A stretch of DNA of 64,000 nt, taken from the NCBI RefSeq assembly GCF_003097315.1, contig NZ_QDDL01000002.1, forward strand, positions 124,001 through 188,000, written 5' to 3'. A program made the translations under genes and the position numbers. How positions within the stretch are numbered: the stretch's first letter is position 1; each line of letters begins with the position of its first letter. The notes under the pieces were generated by a model. The model did no database searches and was not told where the DNA came from. It was given only the letters and a program-made list of their open reading frames with translations. The stretch is from Pelagibaculum spongiae (GTDB lineage: Bacteria; Pseudomonadota; Gammaproteobacteria; Enterobacterales; Pelagibaculaceae). Below, piece after piece: positions 10,136 through 18,577 of the stretch.

Positions 10136-10942
10136 ATGACACATAAGCCGAGGAACTACTTGCCTCTTTTGCTGCTTCTCCCCTTTCAGATTGGGGCTCA
10201 GGAGCAACCTTGGTCAGCAACAATTGCAACTGCTGCTTCGACCAATGCCTATCAATATGGCGAGACAGATAATGCTCGGAGTTTATCTCTGGACATTATC
10301 GCCAATTACAAAATCGCAACAAATCAAACGCTAACATTACTCAGTGGTGTATCCCAAGATTTAGATGACGGTAAAGAAGACGGCTTTAGTAACAGCTGGA
10401 TTTTTTATAAAAATGCTGCCTGGAAAAACATCACACCTGATACCGATGTTAGCTACCGATTCGGTCTGCAACTGCCTACCAGCGAATACTCAAACAAAAC
10501 CAAAAAATATGCCGCGCTCAGAGCTGAATTACCGATGGTGTATTCCATTCAGAGCGATTGGCTTAAAGGCTGGAATTTTGGTTTTACTCCGAGACTCACT
10601 AGAAATTTTTATGAAAGAACAACGCCTATCGAGGGTAGTCGTGCTTTTGTAGAAATTGAGTTAAGGGGCGCTGCATCTCTATCGGGGGATTTAGCCAACA
10701 ACCTTTCTGCATCTATCAACGGTTATTTCCGTCGCGATAAACCCTTCGATAATGGCTGGCGCTCCCCCAGATATGGACTCGGCTTCGATCTAAGTTACTC
10801 ACTTCCTGAGGATTTCAGTGTTTCCGCTGGTTTTAGTAACCAAGGCGCACTTTATGATTCTGAGCGAGGAGATAAAGGTGATGTATCACTGATAGATCGT
10901 GAAGGTACAGAGTTTTATCTCTCGCTAGAAAAATCTTTATAA
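10136..10942 (+). CDS. Secreted beta-barrel-like outer membrane protein
   Basis: The 268-residue protein begins with a signal peptide (MTHKPRNYLPLLLLLPFQIGAQEQ). The rest shows alternating polar/aromatic strands such as LSLDIIANYKIATNQTLTLLSG, VSYRFGLQLPTSEY, FVEIELRGAASLSG and YGLGFDLSYSLPEDFSVSAGF, as in a small outer-membrane barrel. It does not end in the usual aromatic residue (it ends LSLEKSL), so barrel insertion is inferred. GAGG lies about 4-7 bases before the ATG. The stop is 24 bases before the next ATG, so it is almost surely co-transcribed with the large lipoprotein that follows. Confidence 0.75.
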   Translation: MTHKPRNYLPLLLLLPFQIGAQEQPWSATIATAASTNAYQYGETDNARSLSLDIIANYKIATNQTLTLLSGVSQDLDDGKEDGFSNSWIFYKNAAWKNITPDTDVSYRFGLQLPTSEYSNKTKKYAALRAELPMVYSIQSDWLKGWNFGFTPRLTRNFYERTTPIEGSRAFVEIELRGAASLSGDLANNLSASINGYFRRDKPFDNGWRSPRYGLGFDLSYSLPEDFSVSAGFSNQGALYDSERGDKGDVSLIDREGTEFYLSLEKSL

Positions 10943-10966
10943 GAATAAAAATTGGAGAAAATAATA

Positions 10967-13900
10967 ATGAAAAAGTGGTTACCATTTGCACTGGTGCCCT
11001 TGATGGCTACCGGTTGTTTTGAGAAGTCAGCAGAATATCAAGAGGTAGATAAAGACGCTGACCTAATTTCAAAAAATGCAATTAATTTAAATACGACCTA
11101 TCTATACGTCCCATCAACAAGCGCAGCACCAAGATACGCGATATCTCAATTCCCATTTTACCAAGGTGAAGAAAAGCTTGTTCAGCTGCATTTCTCAAAA
11201 AAAGGGCTCGAAGTACTAGAGCTTGACCGTGATGCAGAACTTAACGACAAAGGTATGATTGTTCCTGGTCGCTATGTTACTGACAATGAAGCAAGTGTTA
11301 AATACTCTCCAGTTTTAACTATTCCTGGCGAACACATTGATTTCCGTTGTAATGAAGACGAATTTGGTGAATGCACTAACTCGGAAGAAGTTATTCCAGG
11401 AGACGACGACGGAGAGGAAACATGGAAGGGATTTGCTTACTTTGATCCTGAATATAAAGGTATTATTCAACATGAACTGAACACCACCAATTGGTTTTTT
11501 GAAGGTGGCGGTCTAGATCTTACTGAAACAAAAGTAATTAGCTATGAAGTAAAAGATGGTGTAATTGATATTGAACTGGAAAAAACTTTCCAGGTTCAGG
11601 AATCAGCAATTTTCGATCACTACAACAATGGGTTAAGCGACCTATCATTCAAAAGTCGTTTCCACTATTCTTTAGTAGATATCAACAAGCTGGCAAGTAA
11701 AGATTATACACCAGTCTATTATGCGGATACTGACCACGATACTTTTGGTTTCTTTAAAGATGAAATTAATAAATATAATGTTAATGGCACTTGCTATAAC
11801 GATTGCAAAGTAAGCCATTTATTGAATCGATTTAATCCTACAAAAGAAACGCTTGACTATCATTTGAGCGGTACTTTCTTAAAGCCTGAAAACAAAATAT
11901 TTTTAGATGCTACAGAAGAAGTTTTCCAAGCCATCAACCCAATGATGCAAGCTGCTGGCGTACCACCAGTTAAATTGATTACACCAGAGTCAGTGGAAAC
12001 TGCTCGGAATTCTGGTGATTTACGAATCAATATGATCAATTTAGTGGATGACCCACTAGAAAATGGTTTGCTTGGATATGGCCCTTCAGTATCTCACCCA
12101 TTAACCGGTGAAATTGTTAAGGCACACATCAACCAATATTCTGGCGTAGCAAGAACCATCACTCGCAGGCATTGGAATGAACTAGTTCGCTTATTTAACC
12201 GTGATGCCATTGCAAAAACACCTGCAATAGTCGCTGAGAGATCTACATCTCTTATTGGCGAAAATCAGGCTGACACCGATCCTCAATCAACAGAAAGAGC
12301 ATTACTGCTGCCGGTAACGAATGGTATTTCTCAAATTGATCGCGCTACTGTTGAGAAAGCTAAGCAAGCAAGTCGCAGACAAGTTCACATCGACGACTTA
12401 CAAGTAATTGAAAAGAATCGCGATGTAACATCAAAAGAATTTAACTTTAACAATGAATTGCTAGTTGAAGAAAAACGCCTTTTACAATGGGGCGAGCAAA
12501 CTGCACTTGGCGTTGAAGCATCGTGGGTTTCATCCACCGTCAAAGGTTTTTTACCTGGGCTTGATGAAAATGACTCTCGCTGGAATGTTGAAGGTAAGTT
12601 AATTGCTTGGGATAACTTAAGTGACGAAGCGCAACGGATTATTTCTGATGCGGTTGCAGTATATGTCTATAAAACCACTTTGGTTCACGAGCTTGGCCAC
12701 AACTTAGGCTTGAGACATAACTTTAAAGGCTCACTGGATGGAAATAATTTCTATTCTGAAGCTGAAGTTAATGAATTAAATCTAAAGCATGTTCCTGCTT
12801 ACAGCTCTGTAATGGATTACGCACCTTCTGTTCTGGATGAATTGCCAGTATGGGGCAAGTATGATTTAGCAGCATTCCGCTTCGCATATAAGCGTGAACT
12901 TGATTTAGTCGCTGAAAATACTGCTGATGTCGAAAATCAACAACTGACTTTTTCATTAGATGCTTATGACACTATTTATAATGCAGAAATCAAAAACTCT
13001 GACGGTGATAACAGCCAAGACGGCAGTCTGAAACTACCTTACGGTGTTGTTGATTTTATTGAAAATATCAACGCATTAAAAGATGAATCAGACCGTGACG
13101 TAAAAAATGCTACTAGCGAAATGCTTGCTGCACAGGCTAAAGCTGATTCATATAGAGAAATTACCCAGCGCGTACTATCACTTAATAATGCTGAGTATTA
13201 CCGAGATGAGAATGAAAACTCTCAAGCAGAGCAGTATGGAATTATCGATGCTGAAACAGCATTAATTAATGACAGAATAGAACAGCTAAAAGCTGACGAC
13301 TTAACTGATGAAGATCGATCCAGATTAACAGCAGAAATCGATCAAGCACGCGACAATATTGCAGCCAGCCAAAAAGTGATTGGCGATTTAGAAGCTGCGC
13401 ATATCGCTTTAGAAAATGCTGTTGCGTCAGCTCGAGATTTATATGCTCAAGTATTCTTGAATAACAGGCAGTTTATTGTTGAAAACTTTGCATTGCAGTT
13501 AGATAGCTATTTAGATCATTACGATTTGGCCGAAGATGAAGCTGAAAAATTGCAAGCTAGTCTGGCGTCATTAGACGAAACAGACACTCGCTATTTTTCA
13601 TCTGAAGAGCTCATCAAACACCAGGAAACTATTCAAACTCAGCAACAACGACTAGATGATTTATTTACTTTTATCGATTATGTCAAGCCTAACCCGAATG
13701 ATTCTAGAACGAATATTGATAATCGTTATTCCGAAATTTCTTTTGAATACTACCAAGTAGCCAATGAAATTAGTCAGCTGAAAAATGATATCCCTCAAGT
13801 TGAAGCATTTTCAGATAATGCCAAGCAATCGCTTGATGTTGTGATAAATGATTTTGAGGTTATTAAAGAAATATCAGAAAAAACTGAAGAGCAGAAAGAA

Positions 13901-16111
13901 GAGTTTGACCGCCTTGAAGCAGAAATGATTCAAGCACAAGAGCTATACAATGGATCTGTTTCATATCTTGCGCAGCTAAGAAATTCGCTATCTGGAAAAC
14001 TAAGTCAATTAACTACTTTAAAACGTGATATCGACCAAAATAAGAATGAAATTCTTAAAGGTCAGCAACATTTTTCAGAGATCTTCTCATTATTTGATGG
14101 CGATCAGAATAACGGTGAATACCCTGTTTGGAAAATCGAAATTGGTTCTTATATAGCAGAAGTCTCTGCAACAGATATTGATTTAGAAAAAGCAACTGCG
14201 GCATACGATTTAGCCAACGCTAAATCAGAAAGCCTTAAACAGTCTTTCTCTAAAATTGATATTTTAAGTGACGATACTAAAGAATTACTTTCTTACTACA
14301 ATCCAAGAAGTTACGAATTCTGTACTGATGGGAACGTTTCATTAAACAACGATTGTAATCGTTTTGATGAGGGCACCAATTTATCAGAAATTGTTGATTA
14401 TTGGATTCAACGCTACATCGATGGTTTTGAAACTAGCAATACCCGTAATGGTCGCACTAACTTCTACGAAGATCACATCATTAATTATGCTGCAAGACGT
14501 TTGAACCAGCAAAATCAAATGAGAGATGTAATAGAAGATTACGATCTATATAAAAGCATCACTGACAACAACATCGATGGTTATGCAGATTTCTGCGGTC
14601 GTGAACTAGCCAAACAACCACTCGAAATTAGCCAAGGATTTGCTAGTTTCTGTGGTCGGTTACTTGCCGTAAATGACAGTGCGGTAAAAGTAGGACAATT
14701 CTTATTAGAGCTAGCGTCTATGCCTGATCACACATGTGAATTGAAAGGCACTGACATTACTGGCGCTGAAAAGTACTTTACTATGCCACTATCTGAGTTA
14801 TTTGGTGATTTGAACTACCGCGCACTGCCAAAAGGCTACCCTGCACCGTTAAGCTGTTTTGACCAAGGCATGCAACAAGCACTTAAAGCAAATGATTTAA
14901 ATAAATCGATTGGCTTTGATGCTTTAGAAGTTGGTGATGATTTCGATACAGGTTATCGTGCGGTAGACGTTGTTTCAGAAACTGGCCGTTATTTAAATGG
15001 TTTTAGAAATAACGATCCGTCCCATAAATTCTCTAATGATCGTTCTGTTTTAGGTACTTGGGTTGATCGCGTATTTGCAATTGAAACACTGGCACGTCGC
15101 GCATCATTGCGCCCGACTACTGACGAGGGCACTTCTGCATTAACAGATATTCCTGAAATCAAAGCCGGCTTTAATGAATTTGCTCGCTATATCACCTTAG
15201 GCGGCTCATCAACTAACGGCGTTAAGTTCACTGATGCCCAAGGCAATCCTGTTACACCAAAAGCACAATACAGCTACGACGGCTTGCAGAAAATTGCAGA
15301 GCCATTGTCTTATTGGTCAGAAAGTTTAATTAGCCGCTTAGGTTTAAATGATTTCTCTAAGACAGAAGTAACCAAAGCATTATTGAACAAAGTTTGGTAT
15401 GGAGCTGATGTAACCGGATCATGGCGCTCGGATTGGGCAGAAGAAGCCAGAGGTTTAGTCAACATGGTTTCTAGCCGTTACTATGATCAGCAAAACGAAG
15501 AGCTTGATGCACTTACCTTAACTCACGATGGTTTTGTTTATCAGGCAACTGCTGATAACCGCATTGCCTATGAAATTATTCAAAACCAATTTTGGAATAA
15601 ACAGCTTACAAGGTTAAGCACCGGAGGTGTTAATTTCGAAGCGATATTAGATACTAAAACTTTCGCTGATGAGAATTATCAGCAATTGGCTTTAGCATCG
15701 TGGAAAGTAATGGACACCACTGGTACCGATAATAACGATCTTTACCAGCTTGCAGAATTTATCTTCACTTATGGTATGGATAACATTAGATCTCAAATTG
15801 GTTTAGTGTTCCAAATTGGTAACTTCAGTGCTGATTATTCTACTTGGTTCGCAACCGACCGAGACCGTGACGCATTCTGGAAAGCAATGAGAATCGTTGA
15901 AAGTGCCGAGAGCCTCGGTGATCTTGAGTTATTGTTTGACCAAATAACTGATCAGAAAATAGATATTGTATCTAAATTGGAAAGTGCCGATGAAGCAACT
16001 ATCGAAGCATACCAAGTTAACTACAACGCCTTATCTCTATACATTTCCGGTGAGTTAGCGCCATTGTCAGCTAAGCAACTTAACGTATTGCCATTACTCC
16101 CTAGAAGATAA
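10967..16111 (+). CDS. Very large lipoprotein zinc metalloprotease (metzincin-like) with coiled-coil insertion
   Basis: The 1714-residue product starts MKKWLPFALVPLMATGC, a lipoprotein signal with the acylated Cys at 17; I use ATG 10967 with GGAGAAA 6 bases upstream instead of TTG 10952. The zinc site is HELGHNLGLRH at 574-584 (HExxHxxGxxH), with a Met-turn SSVMDY around M616, as in the 'zinc-dependent metalloprotease' lipoproteins carrying DUF5117/DUF4953-type domains. Residues about 700-1100 form a long, charged heptad-rich coiled coil (e.g. DDLTDEDRSRLTAEIDQ, SEKTEEQKEEFDRLEAEMI). A long C-terminal domain has paired cysteines. It probably acts at the cell envelope, possibly with the barrel protein upstream. 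Substrate unknown. Confidence 0.85.
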   Translation: MKKWLPFALVPLMATGCFEKSAEYQEVDKDADLISKNAINLNTTYLYVPSTSAAPRYAISQFPFYQGEEKLVQLHFSKKGLEVLELDRDAELNDKGMIVPGRYVTDNEASVKYSPVLTIPGEHIDFRCNEDEFGECTNSEEVIPGDDDGEETWKGFAYFDPEYKGIIQHELNTTNWFFEGGGLDLTETKVISYEVKDGVIDIELEKTFQVQESAIFDHYNNGLSDLSFKSRFHYSLVDINKLASKDYTPVYYADTDHDTFGFFKDEINKYNVNGTCYNDCKVSHLLNRFNPTKETLDYHLSGTFLKPENKIFLDATEEVFQAINPMMQAAGVPPVKLITPESVETARNSGDLRINMINLVDDPLENGLLGYGPSVSHPLTGEIVKAHINQYSGVARTITRRHWNELVRLFNRDAIAKTPAIVAERSTSLIGENQADTDPQSTERALLLPVTNGISQIDRATVEKAKQASRRQVHIDDLQVIEKNRDVTSKEFNFNNELLVEEKRLLQWGEQTALGVEASWVSSTVKGFLPGLDENDSRWNVEGKLIAWDNLSDEAQRIISDAVAVYVYKTTLVHELGHNLGLRHNFKGSLDGNNFYSEAEVNELNLKHVPAYSSVMDYAPSVLDELPVWGKYDLAAFRFAYKRELDLVAENTADVENQQLTFSLDAYDTIYNAEIKNSDGDNSQDGSLKLPYGVVDFIENINALKDESDRDVKNATSEMLAAQAKADSYREITQRVLSLNNAEYYRDENENSQAEQYGIIDAETALINDRIEQLKADDLTDEDRSRLTAEIDQARDNIAASQKVIGDLEAAHIALENAVASARDLYAQVFLNNRQFIVENFALQLDSYLDHYDLAEDEAEKLQASLASLDETDTRYFSSEELIKHQETIQTQQQRLDDLFTFIDYVKPNPNDSRTNIDNRYSEISFEYYQVANEISQLKNDIPQVEAFSDNAKQSLDVVINDFEVIKEISEKTEEQKEEFDRLEAEMIQAQELYNGSVSYLAQLRNSLSGKLSQLTTLKRDIDQNKNEILKGQQHFSEIFSLFDGDQNNGEYPVWKIEIGSYIAEVSATDIDLEKATAAYDLANAKSESLKQSFSKIDILSDDTKELLSYYNPRSYEFCTDGNVSLNNDCNRFDEGTNLSEIVDYWIQRYIDGFETSNTRNGRTNFYEDHIINYAARRLNQQNQMRDVIEDYDLYKSITDNNIDGYADFCGRELAKQPLEISQGFASFCGRLLAVNDSAVKVGQFLLELASMPDHTCELKGTDITGAEKYFTMPLSELFGDLNYRALPKGYPAPLSCFDQGMQQALKANDLNKSIGFDALEVGDDFDTGYRAVDVVSETGRYLNGFRNNDPSHKFSNDRSVLGTWVDRVFAIETLARRASLRPTTDEGTSALTDIPEIKAGFNEFARYITLGGSSTNGVKFTDAQGNPVTPKAQYSYDGLQKIAEPLSYWSESLISRLGLNDFSKTEVTKALLNKVWYGADVTGSWRSDWAEEARGLVNMVSSRYYDQQNEELDALTLTHDGFVYQATADNRIAYEIIQNQFWNKQLTRLSTGGVNFEAILDTKTFADENYQQLALASWKVMDTTGTDNNDLYQLAEFIFTYGMDNIRSQIGLVFQIGNFSADYSTWFATDRDRDAFWKAMRIVESAESLGDLELLFDQITDQKIDIVSKLESADEATIEAYQVNYNALSLYISGELAPLSAKQLNVLPLLPRR

Positions 16112-16142
16112 AAATAGAAAGTAACGGTACAACGTAAAAACA

Positions 16143-16178
16143 AAAGGCGTTTATTGGAAACAATAAACGCCTTTTTTC
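16143..16178 (+). terminator. Strong intrinsic terminator
   Basis: AAGGCGTTTATT-GGAAAC-AATAAACGCCTT followed by a T-run. The A-run before the stem lets it also act on the minus strand, serving both the metalloprotease operon and the convergent dehydrogenase gene. Confidence 0.92.
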
Positions 16179-18284: not shown

Positions 18285-18540
18285 AAATCCGCACCGGCTT
18301 CCTGGCAGATAATTGCTCCCGGCATTATCTGCATTCCTCACATTCATGTGAGTTCCTTTTTGCGGTATACATTACATCCATGTAAATATCCGCACCGGCT
18401 TCCTGCTTCTTTGCGGTATACATTACATCCATGTAAATATCCGCACCGGCTTCCTGCCTCTTTGCGGTATACATTACATCCATGTAAATATCCGCACCGG
18501 CTTCCTGCCTCTTTGCGGTATACATTACATCCATGTAAAT
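18285..18540. repeat. 51-bp tandem repeat array with variable-arm palindromes
   Basis: TTTGCGGTATACATTACATCC plus ATGTAAATATCCGCACCGGCTTCCTGCCTC forms the unit. Copies of TGCGGTATAC start at 18361, 18412, 18463 and 18514, an exact 51-bp period. A more diverged unit precedes them (18285-18360) with hairpins GCAGATAAT...ATTATCTGC and CTCACAT-TC-ATGTGAG. Related single copies lie at 34111-34140 and 50353-50412. Because 51 is a multiple of 3, long frames read through it (repeating YMDVMYTAKRQEAGAD), but I do not regard them as genes. Confidence 0.92.
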
Positions 18541-18577
18541 AAAAATCCCGGCCATTTTGCAATGACCGGGATTTTTT
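18541..18577. terminator. Bidirectional intrinsic terminator (mdh side)
   Basis: ATCCCGGCCATT-TTGC-AATGACCGGGAT has one mismatch, with an A-run before and T-run after. It abuts the tandem array and lies 13 bases after the mdh stop on the minus strand. Confidence 0.9.

Follow-up and report, generated by a model that had tools for sequence, protein, structure and literature searches.

A conserved gene pair for a predicted outer-membrane barrel and a large metzincin lipoprotein in Pelagibaculum spongiae, with a proposed role in peptide uptake

We analyzed a stretch of 64,000 nucleotides from Pelagibaculum spongiae (contig NZ_QDDL01000002.1, positions 124,001 to 188,000; hereafter the window) that carries a gene for a small predicted outer-membrane barrel followed by a gene for a metzincin-type lipoprotein of 1714 residues. 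The barrel gene (10136..10942 in window coordinates; this and the other window features of the two genes lie on the + strand) is an open reading frame (ORF) of 268 codons, of which residues 1 to ~21 (10136..10198) are a likely signal peptide, with a boundary set by eye and low model confidence at residues 12-20. Its stop codon is separated by 24 bp from the ATG of the protease gene (10967..16111), which is defined by its ORF, a PF16313 match, and the alignment of its homologues. A GGAG (10954..10957) is the likely ribosome-binding site of this second gene, and 3′ of it a hairpin with a T run (16142..16177) is likely a terminator shared with a convergent gene. From this layout of short gap, GGAG site, and terminator-like hairpin, the two genes are probably co-transcribed.

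The barrel protein matched PF13557 (Phenol_MetA_deg) with 32.5 bits against a gathering cut-off of 22, and an AlphaFold2 (AF2) model reached a mean predicted local distance difference test score (pLDDT) of 89.4 and a predicted template modeling score (pTM) of 0.83. The DSSP listing of the model, read by eye with short breaks joined, gives 12 strands. Along these strands, hydrophobic and polar faces alternate more sharply than in any of 1000 permutations. The face turned inward has 8 Lys/Arg and 11 Asp/Glu among 77 positions, and the C-terminal residue is Phe, Tyr, or Leu in 56 of 57 aligned barrels. The protein is therefore a predicted 12-stranded outer-membrane barrel, as the original prediction of a small barrel-like protein had it. 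PF13557 was the only family found at E up to 1; the KdgM profile gave no match in this search, whose HMMER filters may drop weak matches, and the barrel of an Aeromonas locus (L048) had no Pfam match at 0.001. Searches by sequence found no convincing solved relative of the barrel or of the protease. By structure, VIA ranked KdgM (Z 17.0), the COG4313 channel 4rl8 (16.9), FapF (16.9), NanC (16.2), and an oligogalacturonate porin of V. harveyi (16.1) as close neighbors, and the top Foldseek match was FapF (E 1.2e-8). Because like folds serve oligomer uptake, passage of hydrophobic molecules, and polypeptide export, the fold leaves transport direction and substrate open.

The oligosaccharide porins KdgM and NanC have 12 strands, like the window barrel, and follow a logic of depolymerase plus oligomer porin to which protease plus barrel can be likened. 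COG4313/PF13557 channels resemble the window barrel in a sequence score over the cut-off and in their 12 strands; according to the available excerpt of PMC4493636, COG4313 is a channel for hydrophobic molecules whose pore is plugged by its own N-terminal residues. The window barrel appears to leave little room for such a plug, with ~4 residues between the estimated end of the signal peptide and strand 1 (cleavage site placed by eye; some barrels of the set are N-terminally longer). It also differs in its genetic partner, a protease rather than genes of aromatic catabolism. FapF, described in the excerpt of PMC5557850 as a secretion channel for polypeptide (amyloid) with an N-terminal trimeric coiled coil and a plug, is likewise 12-stranded, whereas the 268-residue window barrel has neither a coiled-coil nor a plug domain.

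The lipoprotein opens with a lipobox, ATGC, that ends at residue 17 (C17, 11015..11017; Phe follows, with no Asp at +2). G16 and C17 are invariant in an alignment of 14 sequences, as are an N-terminal-region cysteine pair, C128/C136 (11348..11374), and residues C1119, T1120, D1121, C1130, D1134, and G1136 of a conserved C-terminal motif, CTDx(8)CxRxDEG (residues 1119-1136, 14321..14374), which contains a second cysteine pair. The zinc-binding motif HELGHNLGLRH (residues 574-584, 12686..12718) is kept as HExGHxxGxRH in all 89 homologues of >1000 residues, window copy included. The Met-turn SVMDY (residues 614-618, 12806..12820) was matched by pattern in 85 of the 89; the pattern missed four. 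These positions confirm the lipoprotein with HExxHxxGxxH and a Met-turn that had first been read from the letters.

We modeled a 1200-residue slice of the protease (residues 285-1484). Mean pLDDT was 73.6, with most of the catalytic part at ~90. VIA aligned solved metzincins to this model at Z ~8-9, a modest level, with rmsd 3.0-4.0 Å over 130-150 residues: karilysin at Z 9.1 (143 residues, 3.5 Å), the Streptomyces zinc protease 1kuh at Z 8.8, and matrix metalloproteases at ~8. The first rows of the same list also held EcxAB (4l6t, Z 9.4) and an axonemal helical chain (Z 9.4 at 54.5 Å rmsd) lying on the helical segment described below; helices likewise swamped a Foldseek search with the whole slice, which returned nothing at E <0.001. 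The model thus predicts a metzincin fold for the catalytic core, at modest Z. Because the metzincin alignments run over model residues 3-360, the core (residues 287-644, 11825..12898) ends near residue 644, and the helical segment lies after it and before the C-terminal region.

The original prediction had suggested a comparison with the DUF5117/DUF4953 families. The window protein passes the cut-off of DUF4953 (PF16313, “Met-zincin”) narrowly, with 26.2 against 24.2 bits over profile positions 15-148 of 316, and passed it again in the genome search; no DUF5117 domain (PF17148) was found in it at E up to 1. For comparison, we fetched nine distant loci. One, L156, had no protease matching profile A1, our alignment profile of the protease; the other eight encode DUF4953/DUF5117 cousins of 805-990 residues that score 204-266 bits with PF16313, all eight with DUF5117 before the catalytic domain. 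The two groups have the HExxHxxGxRHNF motif and Met-turn in common, and the window branch is set apart as large lipoproteins with conserved N- and C-terminal regions of their own. Since DUF5117 occurs in 8/8 cousins and is missing from the window protein, the latter is best placed by sequence as a distant branch of the DUF4953/DUF5117 proteins rather than an ordinary member. The terms DUF4953 and DUF5117 occurred in no paper of the literature searched, which covered neither subscription journals nor preprints.

Between core and C-terminal region lies a mostly helical segment (residues 645-1114, 12899..14308). Spacing between the fixed motifs on its two sides could be measured in 83 of the 89 homologues and is 477 residues in the window copy; the median is 69, and the next-longest spacing is 164. 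Six homologues were not parsed by the motif pattern; among them is a second copy in this genome (locus L004), which has ~140 residues at the same site with a shorter helical stretch, as read by eye from the alignment. For nearer relatives, the family Pelagibaculaceae is represented by this genome alone. The segment was modeled as long helices at middling confidence. Its Pro+Gly content is 3.6%, and its GC content is 0.360, with 0.391 and 0.404 in the flanks. Heptad periodicity exceeded shuffled sequences in two of three helices tested (reached by 2 and 35 of 2000 shuffles) and gave no signal in the third (1019 of 2000). The comparison gives good support to reading the segment as a private enlargement, in the window copy, of a length-variable hinge site. 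We considered and rejected the segment as a trait of the family, since the other 82 parsed homologues have at most 164 residues there; that a coiled coil is not standard in the family agrees with what had been expected. An internal duplication was also unsupported (the halves align at a score of 55; 100 shuffles gave a mean of 45 and a maximum of 67). “Helical hairpins/coiled coil” is a fairly apt label for the modeled segment. The initial description of a coiled coil of ~400 residues splitting the protease survives in part: the helical segment stands, with heptads in two of the three helices tested, but one continuous coil was not shown, and the catalytic fold is uninterrupted.

We next consider the pairing of the two genes. 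A scan of genome contigs with profile A1 gave 348 relatives; we kept the best 80, which represent 79 distinct loci. Pairing was counted at 87 loci (these 79 named loci, the 2 of this genome, and 6 further ones) holding 91 protease ORFs of at least 590 residues. A barrel gene lies at most 500 bp upstream of 82 of the 91, on the same strand in 81, with a median gap of 24 bp; for the 79 named loci and the 2 of this genome alone, the barrel is upstream in 77 of 85 and on the same strand in 76. Of the nine exceptions, five are at the edge of a contig, L114 contributes the latter half of a split gene, L004 (the second copy in this genome) has its barrel downstream, and two lack an adjoining barrel. 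Within the 82, the barrel of L086 is a fragment, the protease of L114 is a first half, and the nearest barrel of L140 is on the opposite strand, 319 bp off. The barrel was not selected for, because the loci were fetched by the protease alone; the counts are not independent, because many loci come from related species. Beside the eight DUF4953/DUF5117 cousins, the barrel (profile A2) was absent in every case, even at E up to 10.

Whole genomes gave the same picture. Of 295 genomes sampled evenly from the order, 13 have the protease at E <1e-30; the tool's total of 19 adds six weak matches. Barrel profile A2 matched 13 places in 11 of the 295, all within the 13 protease genomes, with no match listed between 2.8e-62 and the limit of 1e-5. 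The two protease genomes without a barrel match (G095 and G110) have fragmented assemblies, in which the protease gene sits where a contig ends. In two genomes with two pairs, barrel and protease copy numbers agree (2 and 2). Moreover, tree distances of barrels and proteases correlate with r 0.72 over 80 pairs, where 1000 permutations gave at most 0.14. Cases with two copies weigh more, because shared species history contributes to this value: there, the difference profiles of a barrel and its own protease correlate positively in all 9 such loci or genomes (r 0.39-0.95, weakest in this genome). The barrel–protease pair is a conserved, near-invariant unit, and this is well supported. It was foreseen that a barrel would adjoin orthologous proteases, and one does so upstream of 82 of 91 and downstream of one more, with no barrel lacking a protease in the order sample.

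Among the best 80 relatives, the gammaproteobacterial hosts are Vibrio, Photobacterium, Aliivibrio, Grimontia, Enterovibrio, Aeromonas, Ferrimonas, Shewanella, and Motilimonas; Bdellovibrionota contribute Bacteriovorax, Bdellovibrio, Halobacteriovoraceae, and others, and one metagenome-assembled genome (MAG) each is labeled Epsilonproteobacteria and Deltaproteobacteria. Shewanella decolorationis S12 carries the pair at L135, and a Shewanella orthologue of the protease has 1152 residues. The family is sparse in wider samples: an even sample of the class had matches at E up to 0.001 in 5 of 369 genomes, the sole strong one in this genome, and a sample of the phylum had matches at E up to 1e-30 in 2 of 299. 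Carriage by phages was considered and dropped, as 450 viral-contig stretches fit a pattern and none encodes a relative by tblastn. In the available excerpt of a Bdellovibrio predation proteome (PMC12546842), no link to the barrel or protease genes could be made. The pair was undescribed in the titles and abstract openings among the matches listed by a literature search with the same coverage as above.

Some loci depart from the usual arrangement. An uncultured Shewanella has two barrel–protease pairs in succession (L121:8828-18769). A Halobacteriovoraceae MAG has its protease split into ORFs of 599 and 662 residues behind a full-length barrel (L114:8967-13753). In an Oligoflexia MAG (L140:2757-15406), two divergent proteases flank two barrel genes, both on the minus strand; the plus-strand protease has 2169 residues, with no Met-turn found by pattern.

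We examined the genes around 81 loci (the 79 named and the 2 of this genome). One BLAST cluster of solute-binding proteins (SBPs) is present in 21 of them, in 20 together with both permease clusters. The member in L004 is an SBP_bac_5 protein, and the binding proteins of L083, L075, and L004 scored best against nickel and oligopeptide binding-protein models, none reaching an NCBIfam cut-off. Gene order varies. Nine named vibrio loci have permease-permease-SBP-ATPase-ATPase-barrel-protease; five Photobacterium loci and V. tapetis have protease-permease-permease-SBP-ATPase-ATPase; and V. metschnikovii and V. injensis have protease-SBP-ATPase-ATPase-permease-permease. The importer genes are divergent in P. 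sanguinicancri, and in two Motilimonas loci they lie a few genes off in convergent orientation. Genes for an SBP, for two permeases, and for a double ATPase (oligo_HPY domains) follow the second copy in this genome. Three lineages can be told apart among the binding proteins, with ~20% mutual identity. Of the 3 SBP_bac_5 genes in this 4.99-Mb genome, one adjoins the second pair; by arithmetic, random placement within 10 kb of such a gene would occur with a chance of ~1.2%.

Mainly because different importers are repeatedly linked to the same pair, we propose that the two genes encode an outer-membrane unit for the use of external protein, in which a protease and a dedicated channel serve peptide uptake, a function that the original prediction did not contain and to which we give about an even chance. 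Two further points in its favor are that the barrel is as close to the uptake porins KdgM and NanC as to COG4313 and FapF (Z 16-17), and that a gene of the Peptidase_M14/AstE-type cluster described below accompanies the pair in 8 loci. Starting from what was computed (pairing, catalytic motifs, predicted folds, and importer linkage), we infer surface exposure of the protease, a complex of the two proteins, passage of peptides, and a role for the helical arm. The lipoprotein would be held in the outer membrane by its lipid anchor, with the outer face as the most likely side, and its zinc metzincin domain would cut external proteins or large peptides. The 12-stranded barrel could be the dedicated channel through which the pieces reach the periplasm, and an Opp/Dpp-type binding protein with its ATP-binding cassette (ABC) importer would then carry them into the cell; for the window copy, the importer would presumably be the one encoded alongside the second pair. 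The long helical segment may serve as a reach or gating arm. A likeness exists in lactococcal PrtP, a surface protease that feeds the oligopeptide ABC importer Opp; it differs in being a serine protease of the Gram-positive cell wall, with no outer-membrane channel. A bolder version, which we hold tentatively and would wager against, has barrel and lipoprotein in one complex, the protease sitting over the external opening of an oligopeptide-specific porin and feeding cut peptides directly into it. This would be a machine independent of TonB, with Opp/Dpp importers that vary by lineage, common to relatives of Vibrio and Shewanella and to predatory Bdellovibrionota, and with a 470-residue arm beside the active site in the window organism.

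Several observations weigh against uptake. No Opp/Dpp-type importer lies beside the window copy, and none was seen in 60 of 81 loci within the stretch examined, which reaches at least 7 kb on both sides in only 56 of the 81. Nickel and other solutes are also taken up by importers of the SBP_bac_5 type, and a similar barrel fold serves secretion in FapF and hydrophobic-molecule uptake in COG4313. The proteases of L107 (948-4832) and L124 have upstream sequence yet no adjoining barrel. In only 8 of 18 two-copy cases do barrel and protease share their exact nearest neighbor, and for this genome these neighbors fail to separate the two copies. Finally, a PmrA/PhoP-like regulator and a kinase lie near 7 of the 81 loci, on the same strand in 4, which fits antimicrobial-peptide defense.

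Some of these points are shared by the main rival, which is possible and somewhat improbable: the barrel may be a private assembly or export conduit, similar to FapF, that brings the lipoprotein to the surface or anchors it there, with no nutrient uptake. Such a conduit would fit the ratio of about one barrel per protease, the barrel usually coming first, and the correlated evolution of the two. FapF, a polypeptide exporter, is moreover the best Foldseek match and ties with KdgM by VIA, and the 60 loci without a visible importer would need no further account. The recurrence of peptide-type importers from three lineages would then be left unexplained, however, and the mature N-terminus of the barrel is too short for a coiled coil and plug of the kind that the FapF excerpt describes. 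Defense against antimicrobial peptides comes next and is unlikely. Here, the protease would act like an omptin and destroy cationic peptides at the cell surface, with the importer clearing the fragments by analogy with Sap. The regulator and kinase genes, which in Vibrio (L083 and L103) follow on the same strand and in Shewanella (L129) are convergent, would belong to such a response: the sole regulator scanned (L129) scored best against PmrA and PhoP models, both kinases scanned carry HisKA and HATPase domains, and two of three binding proteins scanned match SapA weakly, among others. Yet the regulator stays below NCBIfam cut-offs (PmrA, 205 against 330 bits), a porin next to the protease would let peptides in instead of keeping them out, and the pair is common to lineages that we take to be free-living and predatory.

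The lipoprotein might instead face the periplasm, as outer-membrane lipoproteins do by default, and trim peptides or process envelope proteins after entry through the barrel. We consider this quite unlikely, since so tight a pairing with a barrel is, by analogy, more typical of surface units such as SusC/D and MtrB/C. That the two genes are mere neighbors by chance, without a functional link, is extremely improbable: we found no point in its favor, and pairing, distance correlation, co-occurrence, and conservation across Gammaproteobacteria and Bdellovibrionota contradict it. Peptide uptake is the best supported of these readings, with export of the lipoprotein by the barrel as its main rival and defense after that. 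To our knowledge, little is understood of how sizeable peptides cross the outer membrane of Gram-negative bacteria that lack SusC/D-type systems. The predicted porin, whose gene almost always accompanies that of a protease and recurs near those of peptide-type importers, is a concrete, testable candidate for such entry, and the pair may be a little-studied system for cutting proteins and importing the pieces in many marine and predatory bacteria.

Other neighbors were named from one or two scanned representatives per cluster. A helix-turn-helix (HTH) regulator occurs in 17 of 81 loci, with 17 of the 18 genes on the opposite strand. Eight loci of Bdellovibrionota or similarly labeled MAGs have a same-strand upstream gene, and the one scanned member of this cluster is a Peptidase_M14/AstE-type protein. 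In seven Bdellovibrionota-type loci (L104, L109, L115, L117, L122, L125, and L130), the pair adjoins opposite-strand genes that we take to be truB, infB, and nusA. Same-strand lipoprotein-like genes of 1002 and 987 residues lie upstream of the second protease copy (L004:9415-12423 and L062:9520-12483, contig 10); the former has a coiled-coil-like stretch by eye and no Pfam match, and the latter has an Ig-like He_PIG match. Elsewhere in the window, a 51-base unit is repeated in tandem within a small ORF (18355-18541; 3.7 copies, 97% matches).

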